NCBI GenBank assembly: GCA_015063895.1
Contig: SVTG01000018.1
Location: 1-37,090 of the forward strand
Source of the DNA: Oscillospiraceae bacterium
GTDB lineage: Bacteria > Bacillota > Clostridia > Oscillospirales > CAG-272
Direction of reading: 5' to 3'
DNA: 37,090 nt
Position numbers and translations under genes: made by a program. The notes beneath the pieces are model-generated. The model was not told where the DNA came from. It worked only from the letters and a program-made list of their open reading frames with translations, and searched no databases. Shown one piece after another: positions 26,757 to 32,161 of this stretch (position 1 is the first letter of the stretch; each line of letters begins with the position of its first letter).

Positions 26757-27373
26757 AAAGTGTTTTTTACGTCATTATCCGCACCTTACTGGTGATTCCT
26801 GCTAAGCTTTTGTTTCGCGTAAAGGTCGTCGGCCGCAAAAACGAGCCCAAAAGAGCCGAGGGACCGTATCTTGTGTGCGGTAACCATCAGACCGTGCTTG
26901 ATCCGGTTTTCCTTTGCGTTGCTTTACGGCGTCAGCAGCCGCATTTTATGGCAAAGGCTGAGTTGTTTCGCGTGCCTGTGCTGAAGCATCTTGTGCGTTG
27001 GCTGGGGGCTTATCCCGTGTCGCGCGGCAAGGGTGACGTGGGTGCGATCAAGCGCACGATCAAGCTGCTGGAAAACGGGTATAGCGTCGGTATGTTCCCG
27101 CAGGGCACGCGTTGTGCCGGCAAGGATCCGCGCGATTGCCGTGTGAAGACGGGCGCTGCGATGATCGCCGCACACGCAGGCGCGCAGATCCTGCCCGTGC
27201 ATATCAAAATGAAAAATTACACGTGGAAGTTCTTTCGCCGCGTAACGGTGGTGATCGGTGAGCCGATCCCTTTTGAAAGCTTTGCGTACGACAGCGAACA
27301 GCAGGGCGAATACGCCCGTATTTCCGAGGCGGTATACGCTGAGATCTGCCGCCTTGGTGACACTGTAAAATGA
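26753..27373 (+). CDS. plsC: 1-acyl-sn-glycerol-3-phosphate acyltransferase (PlsC family)
   Basis: This 206-residue lysophosphatidate acyltransferase adds the second acyl chain in phosphatidate synthesis at the membrane. It has an N-terminal hydrophobic segment (about 3-20), the HX4D catalytic motif in 'CGNHQTVLDPVF', motif II 'AKAELFRVPVL', motif III as 'MFPQGTR', and the final 'ILPVHIK' block. Motif III has Gln where FPEGTR is usual; such variants exist but the change is worth noting. Start and stop both overlap neighbours by ATGA (cmk upstream, ispH downstream). Confidence 0.92.
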   Translation: MKSVFYVIIRTLLVIPAKLLFRVKVVGRKNEPKRAEGPYLVCGNHQTVLDPVFLCVALRRQQPHFMAKAELFRVPVLKHLVRWLGAYPVSRGKGDVGAIKRTIKLLENGYSVGMFPQGTRCAGKDPRDCRVKTGAAMIAAHAGAQILPVHIKMKNYTWKFFRRVTVVIGEPIPFESFAYDSEQQGEYARISEAVYAEICRLGDTVK

Positions 27374-29406
27374 GCGAGGTTATTATTGCCAAAAACGCGG
27401 GCTTTTGCCCCGGGGTGCGCGCGGCTACGGAGCGCCTGCACGCGCGTATGGTGAACCGCGAGGCAAGCGAACGTATCGTGACCTTGGGGCATCTGATCCA
27501 TAATGAAGAATATAACGCAATGCTTGCAGCGAACGGCGTCGTGGCCGTCACTGCCGCCGAGCTGCCGCAGCTGGCGGCCGATGCGACCGCGGCGGCACCT
27601 GTGACGGTTTTTGTGCGCGCCCACGGCATCAACGTACAAACGCGCAAAATGCTGGAGGAGCTTTCCGCCGCCCACCCCGGCTTTTCGTTTGTAGACGGCA
27701 CTTGCCCGTTTGTGACGAAGATCCATCGCATCGCGGAAAAGTATTCTCAGGCCGGCGGCGAAGCCGATTACGTATTTATTGGTATTGGCAATTCCTCTCA
27801 TCCGGAGGTGGAAGGATTTATGAGCTGCTTTGGCGGTGAAAAATACGTTTTTGCCAACAGCAGCGAGCTTCAGGCGGCACTTGATGACGGTTTTCTTGGT
27901 AAAATTTCGTCAAAAACCCCCATTATGGTGGCACAAACGACACAAAATTTAACAGAATGGAAAAAATGTCAAAAACTTTTAAAAAAGGGCTGTACAAACG
28001 CGTTAATTTTTGATACAATATGTAATGTTACGGATTCCCGACAAACGGAGGCGGCCGAGCTTGCCGCAGTATGTGACGGTATGATCGTGATCGGTGGTAC
28101 GGAAAGCTCCAACACTGCAAAGCTTTTCGATATCTGCCAAGCGATCTGTCCCGACACACTGCGCGTCTGCGGCGCGTCACACCTGCCGTTGGTGAAAACG
28201 TTTTCATTAACCCATCGCAAAGTGGGTATTGTGGCGGGTGCATCGACCCCGCAGGAAATCATTGAGGAGGTATATAAAACAATGACTGAAGCAGAAAACT
28301 TTGCAAAACTTCTTGAAGAGACTGAAGTCAAAAATTTACATACAGGAGCAATCGTTACCGGTACCGTATCTCACGTGTCCGACACTGAACTGCAGCTGGA
28401 TCTCGGCGCAGGCGTGACCGGCTACATCAAAGCCGACCGCGTTAGCGATGATCCTGCCGTAAAGCTGACTGAGCAGTTCAAGGTGGGTGACTCCATCGAG
28501 GCTAAGGTGATTCGCGTAAGCGACATCGAGGGCGTGGCCGAGCTTGACAAGCGTCGCGTAGATTCCGGCAAGAACTGGGAAAAGGTCGTTGCCGCAAAAG
28601 AGGCAGGCGACGTGCTTGAGGCTACTGTGGCCGAGGTCGTAAAGGGCGGCGTGACCGTGTTCGTGTTCGGCAATCGCGTATTTATTCCCGCATCGCAGAC
28701 CGGTGTGGCAAAGGACGGCGATCTTTCTCCCCTGAAGGGCACCGACGTGAAATTCAAGGTGATCGAGACCAAGGACCAGGGCCATAAGGCGATCGGTTCT
28801 ATCCGCGTTGTGCTGCGTGAGGAGCGCCGTGCACAGGAGGAGGAGTTCTGGGGCGCTATCGAAGAGGGCAAGACCTATACGGGCGTTGTGAAGAGCATGA
28901 CCTCTTACGGTGCATTTGTTGACCTTGGTGGCGTTGACGGCATGGTTCACACCAGCGAGCTTTCCTGGAAGCACATCAAGAATCCCGCCGAGGTACTTGC
29001 TATCGGCGATACCGTTACCGTATTTGTAAAATCCTTTGACCGTGAGAAGAAGCGCATCTCCCTTGGCTACAAGACCGAGGAGACCAACCCCTGGTTCATC
29101 TTTACGAACAAGTGCCAGGTTGGCGACGTTGTGCCCGTTAAGATCGTGAGCATGATGCCCTTTGGCGCCTTTGCTGAGATCATTGACGGTGTTGACGGCC
29201 TTATCCACATTTCTCAGATCGCCATGACCCGCATTGGCAAGCCCGCTGACGTGCTTGAGATCGGTCAGTCTGTTGACGCTAAGATCATTGAGATCGATAG
29301 CGAGAAGCAGAAGGTAAGCCTTTCGATCCGCGCCCTGCTTGAGGAGGTAGCAGCTGCTGAGGCCGCTATGCCCGAGGAGGCAACCGAGGCTCCTGCTGAG
29401 GAATAA
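27370..29406 (+). CDS. ispH: IspH-S1 fusion: HMBPP reductase with C-terminal ribosomal S1 domains
   Basis: This 678-residue bifunctional-looking protein has IspH at residues 1 to about 290. It reduces HMBPP to IPP and DMAPP, the last step of the MEP isoprenoid pathway. All three 4Fe-4S cysteines are present: Cys13 ('AGFCPGV'), Cys112 ('DGTCPFV') and Cys218 ('DTICNVTDSRQ'), together with 'NSSHPEVEGF'. Four S1 RNA-binding repeats follow (about 325-398, 413-490, 500-572 and 586-660), the last two most canonical ('GVVKSMTSYGAFVDLGGVDGMVHTSEL', 'DGVDGLIHISQI'). An acidic tail ends the protein. This fusion is known in clostridia. The start overlaps plsC by ATGA. A strong terminator follows. Confidence 0.95.
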   Translation: MSEVIIAKNAGFCPGVRAATERLHARMVNREASERIVTLGHLIHNEEYNAMLAANGVVAVTAAELPQLAADATAAAPVTVFVRAHGINVQTRKMLEELSAAHPGFSFVDGTCPFVTKIHRIAEKYSQAGGEADYVFIGIGNSSHPEVEGFMSCFGGEKYVFANSSELQAALDDGFLGKISSKTPIMVAQTTQNLTEWKKCQKLLKKGCTNALIFDTICNVTDSRQTEAAELAAVCDGMIVIGGTESSNTAKLFDICQAICPDTLRVCGASHLPLVKTFSLTHRKVGIVAGASTPQEIIEEVYKTMTEAENFAKLLEETEVKNLHTGAIVTGTVSHVSDTELQLDLGAGVTGYIKADRVSDDPAVKLTEQFKVGDSIEAKVIRVSDIEGVAELDKRRVDSGKNWEKVVAAKEAGDVLEATVAEVVKGGVTVFVFGNRVFIPASQTGVAKDGDLSPLKGTDVKFKVIETKDQGHKAIGSIRVVLREERRAQEEEFWGAIEEGKTYTGVVKSMTSYGAFVDLGGVDGMVHTSELSWKHIKNPAEVLAIGDTVTVFVKSFDREKKRISLGYKTEETNPWFIFTNKCQVGDVVPVKIVSMMPFGAFAEIIDGVDGLIHISQIAMTRIGKPADVLEIGQSVDAKIIEIDSEKQKVSLSIRALLEEVAAAEAAMPEEATEAPAEE

Positions 29407-29410
29407 TTTT

Positions 29411-29450
29411 GCATAAAAAAACACGCGCACGCACGTGCGCGTGTTTTTTT
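29411..29450 (+). terminator. rho-independent terminator of the cmk-plsC-ispH operon
   Basis: Stem ACACGCGCAC/GTGCGCGTGT (29421-29430 with 29435-29444), flanked by long A- and T-runs. Confidence 0.93.
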
Positions 29451-29473
29451 ATATAAAAATGTAATAAATATCA

Positions 29474-29503
29474 TTGACAGGTGAATATGTTGTGTGCTAT
29501 AAT
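29474..29503 (+). promoter_or_regulatory. promoter of the mgsA-like gene
   Basis: TTGACA (29474-29479), 18-base spacer, TATAAT (29498-29503). Confidence 0.82.
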
Positions 29504-29566
29504 TACATAGAATAGGTTGTGTTTTGCAACAATGTAATGACCATCGACGGAAGGAAGGTGCGAAAC

Positions 29567-29995
29567 ATGGAAATTGCCATTATTGCGGCAGACATGAAGA
29601 AGGAATTGATGACACAGTTTTGCATTGCCTATTGCGGTGTTCTCAGTAAGCACAATTTGTGCGCCACCAGCATTACCGCGAAGTACATTTCTGAGGCAAC
29701 GGGCCTGACGATTGAAAAGCTGCTCACGGGTGAGCAAGGCGGCGAACAGCAGATCGCGACACGCATTGCCTATAACGAGATCGATATACTGCTGTATTTC
29801 CGCGACACGCGCCCTGAGGCTGCGTATGACGACGAAAAAACGCAGGAGCTGCTTCTTGCCTGCGACCGCTATAACATTCCTGTTGCAACCAATATTGCTA
29901 CCGCAGAGGCGCTGGTAACGGCGCTTGACCGTGGCGACCTTGATTGGCGCAATTTCATCAACCCGCGCAGCGAATATAACCGTCGCCGCAAATAA
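29567..29995 (+). CDS. methylglyoxal synthase homologue with altered active site
   Basis: This 142-residue protein has the MGS fold and length ('IEKLLTGEQGGEQQIATRIAYNEIDILLYFRD', 'CDRYNIPVATNIATAEALVTALDRGDLDWRNF'). MgsA converts dihydroxyacetone phosphate to methylglyoxal. Aligned without gaps to E. coli MgsA (numbering from memory), key residues differ: His19 is Ala8, catalytic Asp71 is Glu60, His98 is Tyr87, Asp101 is Glu90, and phosphate-loop Thr47 is Ile36. Asp20, Lys23 and Asp91 equivalents (Asp9, Lys12, Asp80) remain. Activity as a normal synthase is therefore doubtful; it may be a degenerate or repurposed paralogue binding another ligand. The ATG at 29567 follows AAGGAAGG. It has its own promoter; the thrS T-box starts right after its stop. 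Confidence 0.85.
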   Translation: MEIAIIAADMKKELMTQFCIAYCGVLSKHNLCATSITAKYISEATGLTIEKLLTGEQGGEQQIATRIAYNEIDILLYFRDTRPEAAYDDEKTQELLLACDRYNIPVATNIATAEALVTALDRGDLDWRNFINPRSEYNRRRK

Positions 29996-29999
29996 TATA

Positions 30000-30200
30000 T
30001 GTGTTTGGAACACGCCCTACAGTGAAAGCACCACAGAGAGAGAGCGCATGGCTGAAACGCTCTTGTGTTATGCTGTAACGGTACCGCCCAGACGCCCGCT
30101 TGGATAAAACTTTGAGTGAAACGCTCGGGTGGAACCGTGTGATGATCGCACCCCGAACCAGAGGCCCTTTTGGCGCCCTGTTCGGGGTGCTTTGCTTTTT
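30000..30200 (+). promoter_or_regulatory. T-box riboswitch, threonine type, upstream of thrS
   Basis: The leader shows the stem I apical hairpin (about 30032-30066, 'AGAGAGAGCGC...GAAACGCTCT'). A specifier region 'GTAACGGTACCG' offers a Thr codon either as ACC (30083-30085) or ACG (30078-30080). The T-box core GGGTGGAACCGTG (30127-30139) departs from the usual ...CCGCG. A terminator stem GCACCCCGAAC/GTTCGGGGTGC (30148-30158 with 30180-30190) is followed by TTTGCTTTTT. No promoter was found between mgsA's stop and the leader, so transcription may come from the mgsA promoter. Confidence 0.85.
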
Positions 30201-30223
30201 AAAATTTCTAAAGGAGAATAAAT

Positions 30224-32161
30224 ATGTTTAAGGTTGTATTTCCCGAAAAAGTTATGGAATTTGAAGCACCGCTTTCGGTGTTTGATGCTGCCCGTGCAGC
30301 CGAGCTCGTCAGCCGCGCGCACGTAGCTGCTGAGGTAAACGGCACCGTTGTCGGTATGACGCAGGTGCTTGATGCTGACGCTGAGGTCAAGCTACTGACC
30401 TGCGAGTCCGCCGCTGGCAAGCACGTGTTTAACCACAGCGCTGCCCACGTGCTGGCACAGGCCGTAAAACGCCTGTATCCTGCTACCAAGCTGACGATTG
30501 GCCCCGCCATTGAAAGCGGCTTTTACTATGATTTTGATAGCGAAATTCCGTTCACCGCAGAGGTTCTGGCAGCACTTGAGGGTGAAATGAAGAAGATCGT
30601 CAAGGAAAATTTGCTCATTGAGCGCTTTGAATTGCCCCGCGATGAGGCATTGGCACTGATGAGTGAAAAGGAGGAGCCCTACAAGGTACAGCTGATCAAC
30701 GAGCTGCCCGAGGATGCCGTGATCAGCTTTTACCGTCAAGGTGAGTTTGTTGATCTTTGCGCAGGCCCGCACATTTTCTCAACGGGTGCCGTAAAGGCCG
30801 TAAAGCTCACGCAATGCACGGGCGCATATTGGAAGGGTGACCAGAATAATAAGATGCTTCAGCGCGTATACGGCGTGGCGTTCCCCACTAAGGATGAGCT
30901 GAAGGCGCATCTTGAGGCATTGGAGGAGGCCAAAAAGCGCGACCACAACAAGATCGGCCGTGAGCTTGAGTATTTTACCACAGTTGATTCTATCGGCCAG
31001 GGCCTGCCGATCTTGCTCCCGAAGGGTGCACGCACGATTCAGATCCTGCAGCGCTGGATCGAGGACGAGGAGCAAAAGCGCGGTTACCTGCTGACCAAGA
31101 CGCCTCTGATGGCCAAACGCGACCTTTATCGCATTTCCGGTCACTGGGATCATTACCGTGACGGTATGTTTATTCTTGGTGATGCCGACGATGAAACAAA
31201 GGAATGCTTTGCATTGCGCCCCATGACCTGTCCCTTCCAGTATCAGGTTTTCTTAAATAAAAAGCGTTCTTACCGCGAGCTGCCGATGCGCCTTGGTGAG
31301 ACCTCTACGCTGTTCCGCAATGAGGAAAGCGGCGAGATGCACGGTCTGATCCGCGTACGTCAGTTTACGATCTCCGAGGGGCATCTTGTGCTCCGTCCCG
31401 AGCAGCTGGAGGAGGAGTTCCACGGCTGCCTTGAGCTTGCTAAGTACGTGCTTGATACCGTTGGTATGCTGGAAAACTGCTCCTTCCGCTTCTCGCAGTG
31501 GGATCCTGCCCGTGCGGGTATTAAATACGAGGGCACCGCTGAGCAGTGGGAGCACGCTCAGTCGGTCATGAAGGATATTCTTGATAAGCTTGGCGTGAAG
31601 TATGAGGTCGGTATTGACGAGGCTGCCTTCTACGGTCCTAAGCTGGATATTCAGTATAAGAACGTATTCGGCAAGGAGGATACCATCGTTACCATTCAGA
31701 TCGATATGCTGCTCGCTGAGAAGTTTGGCATGGAATACGTAGATAGCGACGGCCAGATGAAAACGCCCTATATCATTCACCGCACCTCGCTTGGCTGCTA
31801 CGAGCGCACGCTCGCTTATCTGATCGAGCGCTATGCGGGGGCTCTGCCTACCTGGATGTCGCCCGAGCAGGTGCGTATCCTGCCGATCGGAGACGAGCAT
31901 ATTGATTATGCGTATGAGGTAAAGAAGCAGCTGGCTGCCAAGGGGCTCCGCGTGGAGGTTGACGATCGCAATGAAACGATCGGCAAGAAGATCCGTAATA
32001 CCCAGCTTGAGAAGGTGCCTTATATGCTGGTTATTGGCGATAACGAAATGAATGCAGATACGGTTGCTGTGCGCTCCCGCCGTGACGGTGACAAGGGTGC
32101 GCAGAGTGTGGACGCCTTCCTTGCGGATATTTTAGTTGAGATCGCTGAAAAGAGAAGATAA
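30224..32161 (+). CDS. thrS: threonyl-tRNA synthetase
   Basis: This 645-residue class II synthetase has an N-terminal TGS domain (about 1-60), an editing-domain region with 'HSAAHVLAQAVKRLYP' and 'CAGPHIFSTGAVKAVKL' (about 65-220), and a catalytic core (about 240-535) with 'RPMTCPFQYQVF' (zinc Cys), motif 2 'LFRNEESGEMHGLIRVRQFTISEGHLV', and 'IHRTSLGCYERTLAYLIE' (motif 3). A C-terminal anticodon-binding domain holds 'VRILPIGDEHIDYAYEVKKQLAAKGLRVEVDDRNETIGKKIR'. AAAGGAG precedes the ATG. It is regulated by the T-box leader just upstream and followed by a strong terminator. Confidence 0.97.
   Translation: MFKVVFPEKVMEFEAPLSVFDAARAAELVSRAHVAAEVNGTVVGMTQVLDADAEVKLLTCESAAGKHVFNHSAAHVLAQAVKRLYPATKLTIGPAIESGFYYDFDSEIPFTAEVLAALEGEMKKIVKENLLIERFELPRDEALALMSEKEEPYKVQLINELPEDAVISFYRQGEFVDLCAGPHIFSTGAVKAVKLTQCTGAYWKGDQNNKMLQRVYGVAFPTKDELKAHLEALEEAKKRDHNKIGRELEYFTTVDSIGQGLPILLPKGARTIQILQRWIEDEEQKRGYLLTKTPLMAKRDLYRISGHWDHYRDGMFILGDADDETKECFALRPMTCPFQYQVFLNKKRSYRELPMRLGETSTLFRNEESGEMHGLIRVRQFTISEGHLVLRPEQLEEEFHGCLELAKYVLDTVGMLENCSFRFSQWDPARAGIKYEGTAEQWEHAQSVMKDILDKLGVKYEVGIDEAAFYGPKLDIQYKNVFGKEDTIVTIQIDMLLAEKFGMEYVDSDGQMKTPYIIHRTSLGCYERTLAYLIERYAGALPTWMSPEQVRILPIGDEHIDYAYEVKKQLAAKGLRVEVDDRNETIGKKIRNTQLEKVPYMLVIGDNEMNADTVAVRSRRDGDKGAQSVDAFLADILVEIAEKRR

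Follow-up and report, generated by a model that had tools for sequence, protein, structure and literature searches.

The gene at 29567..29995 of the window (the whole stretch of 37,090 nucleotides that was analysed) encodes a relative of methylglyoxal synthase (MgsA) that lacks most of the catalytic residues of that enzyme. This raises the question of whether the product can still make methylglyoxal and, if it cannot, what the gene is kept for. Our best reading, to which we assign a probability of roughly 0.6, is that a clostridial MgsA has turned pseudoenzyme and is kept as a binder of a phosphorylated metabolite. As judged from sequence comparisons, in a family of Clostridia represented here mostly by gut metagenomes the MgsA-like protein has probably been kept for binding and not for methylglyoxal synthesis. 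Literature searches, which were mostly at title level and had subscription journals largely outside their scope, found no description of this clade.

The gene, its neighbourhood and its promoter

The features of the locus outside the active site are as follows.

29427..29444, + strand: terminator-like hairpin after ispH-rpsA and before the promoter (consensus scan only)
29474..29503, + strand: consensus promoter TTGACA-18-TATAAT, 12/12 match
29567..29995, + strand: gene of the putative MgsA-like pseudoenzyme, 142 aa, with a homologue in 19/21 genomes of the genus
29995..30158, + strand: possible T-box leader of the downstream thrS, outside the MgsA-like gene (Rfam T-box, 29 bits, E 7.9e-5)

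The reading frame begins with an ATG at 29567. A purine-rich GGAAGGAAGGTG stretch lies just 5' of this codon, as similar stretches do at the other loci of the genus; an alternative in-frame GTG is found upstream, at 29519. Across genus loci L003 to L021 the GGAAGGAAGGTG-like ribosome-binding stretch varies slightly and lies no more than about 20 bases before the start codon. The 5' neighbours of the gene are cmk, a plsC-like acyltransferase gene and an ispH-rpsA fusion. The 3' neighbours are thrS and, on the opposite strand, a phosphoglycerate mutase gene of the gpmI type and an acetate kinase gene. We also observed that the fusion of IspH (LytB) with ribosomal protein S1, at 27370-29406, scores 592.9 against the NCBIfam equivalog that exists for such fusions, slightly under its cut-off of 624. 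The T-box match is weak (29 bits against a gathering score of 93); it begins where the MgsA-like gene ends, at its stop codon, and fills the gap to thrS. At the gathering threshold, Rfam gave no match in 29300-30400.

Since a terminator-like hairpin (29427-29444) and a 12/12 promoter (29474-29503) precede the MgsA-like gene, we suggest that it is a separate transcription unit. The scanned stretch contained one promoter-like site, which is no excess over shuffled sequences (mean 1.4). Among 19 loci of the genus the promoter matched at 12/12 positions in 17 and at 11/12 in two. When these loci were mono-shuffled, a 12/12 match arose in 0/380 and an 11/12 match in 2/380. The strong promoter that the initial annotation had described is thus kept throughout these loci.

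We found that the gene is under strong purifying selection. The median dN/dS was 0.069 (range 0-0.136; Nei-Gojobori) for those 82 of the 171 pairs within the genus whose dS fell in the range 0.1-2, the remaining pairs being saturated (51) or outside that dS range (38). Two genomes of the genus encode an identical MgsA-like protein at a dS of 0.57. No stops were present within the matched stretch in the 19 genus genomes with the gene, and no frameshifts were seen in these genomes either.

Fold and family assignment

By sequence comparison and structure prediction, the window protein is clearly an MgsA homologue with the MGS fold. It scored 104.9 bits against the NCBIfam model for methylglyoxal synthase, PRK05234 (cut-off 84), 34.5 bits against Pfam MGS, and 105.3 bits against TIGR00160, under the cut-off of 146.9. 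Because the PRK05234 cut-off is passed, automatic annotation may label the gene methylglyoxal synthase, and a methylglyoxal bypass may be credited in error to these Clostridia in metabolic models.

The nearest solved structure by sequence is that of B. subtilis MgsA (6f2c, E 1.3e-28). An AlphaFold2 model made from an alignment of 20 sequences reached a mean pLDDT of 85.9 and a pTM of 0.81. When the predicted fold was compared with the PDB by Foldseek, MgsA came first (6f2c, E 3.6e-12) and carbamoyl-phosphate synthetases appeared from rank 27 (E 7e-5). The gene is a free-standing ORF and not part of a carbamoyl-phosphate synthetase chain. The only other PF02142 match in the window genome lies elsewhere (C7), within a 1063-aa open frame of CarB size.

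Active-site residues of the window protein

With E. coli MgsA as the anchor, a MAFFT alignment pairs Ala8 of the window protein with His19, Ile36 with Thr47, Glu60 with Asp71, Asp80 with Asp91, Tyr87 with His98 and Glu90 with Asp101. Aligning the protein to the enzymes of B. subtilis and Thermus gave the same pairs. All of them but the pair at Asp91 had been listed as matched residues in the initial annotation, and all five are correct in the three alignments. The spacing had also been called exactly preserved; this holds through residue 90 (60, 80 and 87 against 71, 91 and 98), but relative to MgsA one residue, Lys91, is inserted directly after Glu90. We take Asp101 to have a catalytic role in MgsA. 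The codons of the active site are as follows.

29588..29590, + strand: Ala8 codon, at the position of His19 (alignment)
29600..29602, + strand: Lys12 codon, corresponding to the phosphate ligand Lys23 (role from PMC7843640), kept in 57/57 rows of the window's family and 20/20 rows of its genus
29666..29677, + strand: Thr34-Ser35-Ile36-Thr37 codons, corresponding to the T45-G46-T47-T48 phosphate cradle; Thr45 and Thr48 retained, Ile in place of Thr47
29744..29746, + strand: Glu60 codon, at the position of the catalytic base Asp71 (alignment)
29825..29836, + strand: Tyr87 to Glu90 codons, at the positions of His98 to Asp101 (alignment)

According to a published account (PMC7843640), Asp71 of MgsA is the base, His19 stabilises O3, His98 aids proton transfer but is not critical, and Lys23, Ser65 and Thr45-Gly49 surround the phosphate. 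The same account describes as an active enzyme the MgsA of C. difficile, which has the same register as the window protein (H8, K12, T34-G38, S54, G55, D60, H87). Since C. difficile MgsA is active with His8, Lys12, Asp60 and His87, the ancestor of the window gene was probably catalytic. The alignment and these residue roles together indicate that the window protein would lack the chemistry and have a partial phosphate cradle, with Lys23, Thr45 and Thr48 and not Thr47. The alignments and the predicted fold bear out the earlier view that most catalytic residues of MgsA are lost though the core of the MGS fold is kept.

Catalytic sites drift and three phosphate-cradle sites are kept

We compared these sites, in E. 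coli numbering, among relatives at several distances. The rows of the window's family (f1; the other f-codes are likewise families of the order) number 57 and come from 55 genomes, two being counted twice, and the 20 genus rows come from 19 genomes, one being counted twice. Lys23, Thr45 and Thr48 are present in all 57 f1 rows, Asp91 in 42, His19 in 16 and Asp71 in 2. Site 19 holds D, H, S, G, A or E in these rows, and at site 71 E accounts for 28 rows, the others having A, T, V, G, D or further residues; no residue is common at either site 98 or site 101. Within the genus, site 19 is A in 16 rows, S in three and T in one, site 71 is E and Thr47 has become Ile in 20/20, and His98 has become Tyr in 14/20. 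The initial annotation had proposed to see whether the set of Ala, Glu and Tyr forms a conserved clade. We found that what is common is the loss, with no fixed replacement: even in the genus, Ala8 is found in 16/20 and Tyr87 in 14/20, and only Glu60 in 20/20. The substitutions are widespread and not confined to one sequence, with 55/57 f1 rows lacking Asp71.

Asp occupies site 71 in 18/18 class-level relatives and 30/30 second MgsA copies of f1 genomes but in 0/20 genus rows, all of which have Glu, and thus the loss of Asp71 is not due to chance. The 18 class-level rows also keep His19 in 17, Asp101 in 15 and His98 in 12. Because His98 already varies in these relatives, which keep Asp71, its loss is weak evidence. 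The best 80 of 577 relatives, rows on named contigs that were picked by closeness to the window protein and overlap the other row sets, have His19 in 58, Asp71 in none (E in 72, K in 8), Lys23 in 78 and Thr45 and Thr48 in all 80; in two of these 80, Lys23 has become Met. These 80 are named Clostridia, Oscillospiraceae or Eubacteriales and nearly all are MAGs; where a host is given in the title, it is the gut of sheep, goat, deer, cattle, yak or horse.

Other families of the order differ in what they have lost. Family f22 keeps His19 and His98 in 5/5 and Asp71 in 4/5, with Asp101 changed to Asn in four. In f7 only Asp71 is gone (A in 2/2), and f12 has E at site 71 and Y at site 98 (2/2). A different route of active-site change was observed in f13 (L236, L241, L246, L249), where Gly66 of the phosphate loop is His in 4/5 and Cys in 1/5.

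When 141 sites were ranked by conservation over 73 distinct vertical f1 rows, site 71 came 119th, site 19 125th, site 101 136th and site 98 139th, and Lys23, Thr45, Thr48 and Gly70 were invariant. Parsimony on the tree described below, with gaps at 98 and 101 scored as lost, gave 15 changes at Asp71, 16 at Asp101, 10 at His98, 8 at His19 and 13 at Thr47, compared with 1 at Lys23, 2 each at Thr45 and Thr48, and 4 each at Asp20 and Asp91. Ninety sites reach a fixation of at least 90% among 20 near-canonical rows, and 52 of them still do so in f1. Another 26 are kept in fewer than 60% of f1 rows, and eight of these (19, 47, 49, 65, 71, 92, 99 and 100) lie in or beside active-site loops; this is a plain count without a significance test, and the set of 90 does not include sites 98 and 101. 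The f1 rows keep Thr47 in 21%, Ser65 in 44% and Gly49 in 51%. Cys23 (99%) and Glu50 (96%) are newly fixed in f1 at a level of at least 95%.

We also observed that Cys19 and Cys99 (29861-29863) of the window protein are invariant in 73 f1 rows. Cys19 to Cys23 (codons 29621-29635) place two cysteines four apart on helix 1, a possible redox- or electrophile-sensitive spot.

Distribution and copy number

In the genus, 19/21 genomes carry the gene, with 73-100% identity. In f1, 186/196 genomes match PRK05234, and among the matches listed the scores are bimodal, with 76 matches of at least 173.7 bits in 73 genomes and the next match at 130.4 bits. The numbers of matches per genome imply that 69 genomes have both kinds, 4 the high-scoring kind only, 113 the low-scoring kind only and 10 neither; these counts were made by hand and the assemblies differ in completeness. 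By hand from the matches listed, we infer that about 182/196 f1 genomes carry the vertical, low-scoring MgsA-like gene. In the 113 genomes of the hand count it is the sole MgsA-type gene found.

A profile of the low-scoring kind (A1) had a match in 241/247 order genomes and 193/292 class genomes, and the class-level matches whose sequences were inspected are normal-looking clostridial MgsAs. A second MgsA of E. coli type (L022-L051 were examined) is present in 73/196 f1 genomes, about one third, three of which have two such copies. A search for a second, canonical mgsA in the window genome, as suggested in the initial annotation, found no other MgsA-type gene in this 93% complete assembly.

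The gene descends from the minD-linked clostridial mgsA

A tree was built from 111 rows, 8 of them second copies, together with E. coli MgsA, using 138 columns after six active-site columns had been removed; 35/109 inner branches are unresolved, and it has long branches and unsettled bootstrap values. The second copies group with E. coli MgsA, beyond a 100/100 branch from the window gene. On the side of the window gene are the class-level clostridial MgsAs and other families of the order. Seventy order rows group at 98/97, and 53 rows, including all f1 rows and f19, f5 and f16, group at 99/97. Family f1 is not one branch, as f5 falls inside it, and f2, f6, f7, f12, f13, f15 and f17 fall outside the 70-row order clade.

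We then compared the upstream neighbours. A MinD-family ATPase gene lies at most 600 bases upstream in 27/40 f1 loci, on the same strand and 22-124 bases away; these 40 loci were chosen from higher-scoring listed rows, which tilts the sample to more MgsA-like copies. Such a gene is also upstream in 20/28 mixed f1 and order loci (two of the eight misses hold at most 100 bases of upstream sequence) and in 46/54 other order and class loci, up to 416 bases away and including loci with an intact MgsA. It was found in 0/20 genus loci and 0/30 second-copy loci. The tree and the minD synteny identify the window gene as the ancestral mgsA of Clostridia, vertically inherited and orthologous to the minD-linked clostridial gene. 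The separate, paralogous MGS lineage considered earlier is replaced by this vertical descent. From the tree, the intact E. coli-type copy in about one third of f1 genomes was probably acquired later.

A MinD-like ATPase without MinC and MinE

A representative of the upstream ATPases scored 139.5 bits against the TIGR01968 MinD model, whose cut-off is 212.9. MinC and MinE were each found in 0/29 f1 and order genomes, including the window genome, and each in 3/5 class genomes. Examples of the divergent orphan MinD-family ATPase that persists in the order without MinC and MinE are at L057:4190-4996, L061:4304-5098 and L063:5865-6668.

With a MinD-like profile (E <= 1e-20) that recovered 2/2 positive controls, we found no match in the window genome or in any of 13 f1 genomes without the adjacent gene; several of the f1 and genus genomes searched are incomplete. 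One of these MinD-less loci, L075, has only 343 bases of upstream sequence; its whole genome is also without a MinD-like match. In the genus, 1/21 genomes (G016) encodes a MinD-like protein, a 217-aa open frame on a different contig from the MgsA-like gene. It seems that the order kept a MinD-like and MgsA-like remnant of a Min locus, and the window's genus only the MgsA-like half. Since only 1/21 genus genomes has the ATPase, the role of the MgsA-like protein in the genus would be independent of it, with another partner or with none.

The promoter scan in f1 covered the stretches ahead of the MgsA-like genes. Promoters that matched at 11/12 positions or better and lay no more than 160 bases away were present in 9/13 MinD-less and 1/27 MinD-adjacent f1 loci, a strong link by raw counts (Fisher p 2.3e-5). 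However, the rows are related, and a tree-based comparison that took kinship into account left only three independent pairs on supported branches, about two of which agree and none of which oppose, which is not significant. A tie across f1 between an own promoter and the loss of MinD is thus suggestive and not significant.

What the MgsA-like protein may be kept for

Our data make it very probable that the window protein is not a working methylglyoxal synthase. Most catalytic residues of MgsA are lost, the gene is selected and has a conserved promoter, and the window genome yielded no further MgsA-type gene, so that the protein likely does something other than make methylglyoxal. To this extent the new MGS-fold function proposed in the initial annotation stands; that the Ala, Glu and Tyr set itself marks it is not supported. 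Whether the protein is in particular a regulator that binds a phospho-ligand we regard as an even call. The proton-transfer residues have been lost repeatedly, and the predicted fold and Lys23, Thr45 and Thr48 are retained. Dihydroxyacetone phosphate would no longer be turned into methylglyoxal at a useful rate. The protein would instead be kept for binding a phosphorylated metabolite or phosphate, with dihydroxyacetone phosphate as the first natural candidate, and may relay the ligand signal to another protein, by analogy with the MGS-type domain of carbamoyl-phosphate synthetase. In relatives, the partner could be the MinD-family ATPase encoded immediately upstream.

Catalytic drift, three invariant cradle residues and purifying selection would together point to a ligand-binding pseudoenzyme, not to decay and only poorly to a new enzyme. 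Against this reading, the phosphate cradle is itself altered (the keeping of Thr47, with 13 changes, of Ser65 and of Gly49 given above, and Lys23 to Met in two of the best 80 relatives), and the protein might serve a structural or protein-binding role alone, its phosphate site being a leftover. In addition, Glu60 is a conservative change that could remain a weak base in the genus (E in 20/20), the loss of His98 says little, and the MinD linkage is absent in the window's genus. A retuned enzyme with Glu60 as base, making methylglyoxal slowly or acting on a different phosphorylated substrate, would account for Glu at site 71 in 20/20 genus and 28/57 f1 rows, for Asp91 in 42/57 and for the retained Lys23, Thr45 and Thr48. 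We consider it unlikely, since a shared new reaction would need a catalytic set fixed across f1, and f1 also has A, T, V, G or others at site 71 and shows no common replacement at sites 19, 98 and 101. Loss of catalytic residues would also be expected of a decaying gene on its way out, and 10/196 f1 genomes have neither kind of MgsA, in part perhaps through incomplete assembly. We give decay next to no weight: it is rejected on a dN/dS of about 0.07, on the conservation of sites, with invariant non-catalytic positions, and on the conserved promoter, and the identical protein at dS 0.57 and the lack of stops in 19 genomes also speak against it. The earlier view that the gene is not decaying was right.

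Two alternatives rest on a partner protein. The orphan MinD-like ATPase and the dead MgsA might form a metabolite-gated switch for positioning or division, as suggested by the same-strand MinD-like gene 22-124 bases upstream in 27/40 f1 loci and by the 0/29 counts for MinC and MinE. However, this adjacency is ancestral and also found at intact MgsA loci, and so is no proof of interaction, and the MinD-like gene was not found in 20/21 genus genomes and 13 f1 genomes in which the MgsA-like gene stays; such a switch appears a little less likely even than the retuned enzyme. Less likely again is that the dead protein is a scaffold that retains a docking surface for HPr or Crh. HPr-family matches were found in 23/23 genomes, but HPr is common and its presence therefore uninformative, and the match in the window genome is weak and partial (24 bits), possibly through incompleteness. 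According to one report (PMC10714963), Crh regulates MgsA in B. subtilis, and raised methylglyoxal levels have an effect on division.

A broader conjecture, about as doubtful as the retuned enzyme, is that the dead MgsA and the orphan ATPase are a Min remnant, kept by the order once MinC and MinE had gone, in which MgsA reads triose phosphate or phosphate and gates the ATPase, and that the sensor later outlived the ATPase with its own promoter. If true, glycolytic state would be linked to positioning or division, and in the window's lineage the sensor would serve another target. The pseudoenzyme reading would itself offer a clean case of repeated catalytic loss, in which some genomes carry an intact homologue beside the eroded one and so supply their own control. 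It would also raise the prospect that an orphan MinD-like ATPase is tied to a phospho-metabolite.

Comparison with known systems

The window gene is by the tree a direct orthologue of clostridial MgsA. With clostridial and B. subtilis MgsA (6f2c) its product shares fold, length, residue register and Lys23, Thr45 and Thr48, and the gene shares the ancestral minD neighbourhood. In contrast to these enzymes, the window protein lacks His19, Asp71, His98 and Asp101, has Ile for Thr47 and misses the TIGR00160 equivalog cut-off. The E. coli-type second copies of f1 have a homologous fold but stand on the opposite side of the tree, with a nearby MinD-like gene in 0/30. They keep His19, Asp71, His98, Asp101, Lys23, Thr45, Thr47 and Thr48 in 30/30, and Gly49 has become Ala in 30/30. 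The MGS-type domain of carbamoyl-phosphate synthetase binds a regulatory ligand and passes the signal on within one chain. This domain of CarB (PF02142; 1ce8, with the allosteric ligand IMP) has the MGS fold without MGS catalysis, as the window protein probably does, but it is part of a large enzyme, whereas the window protein is free-standing, 142 aa long and about 20% identical to it (Foldseek).
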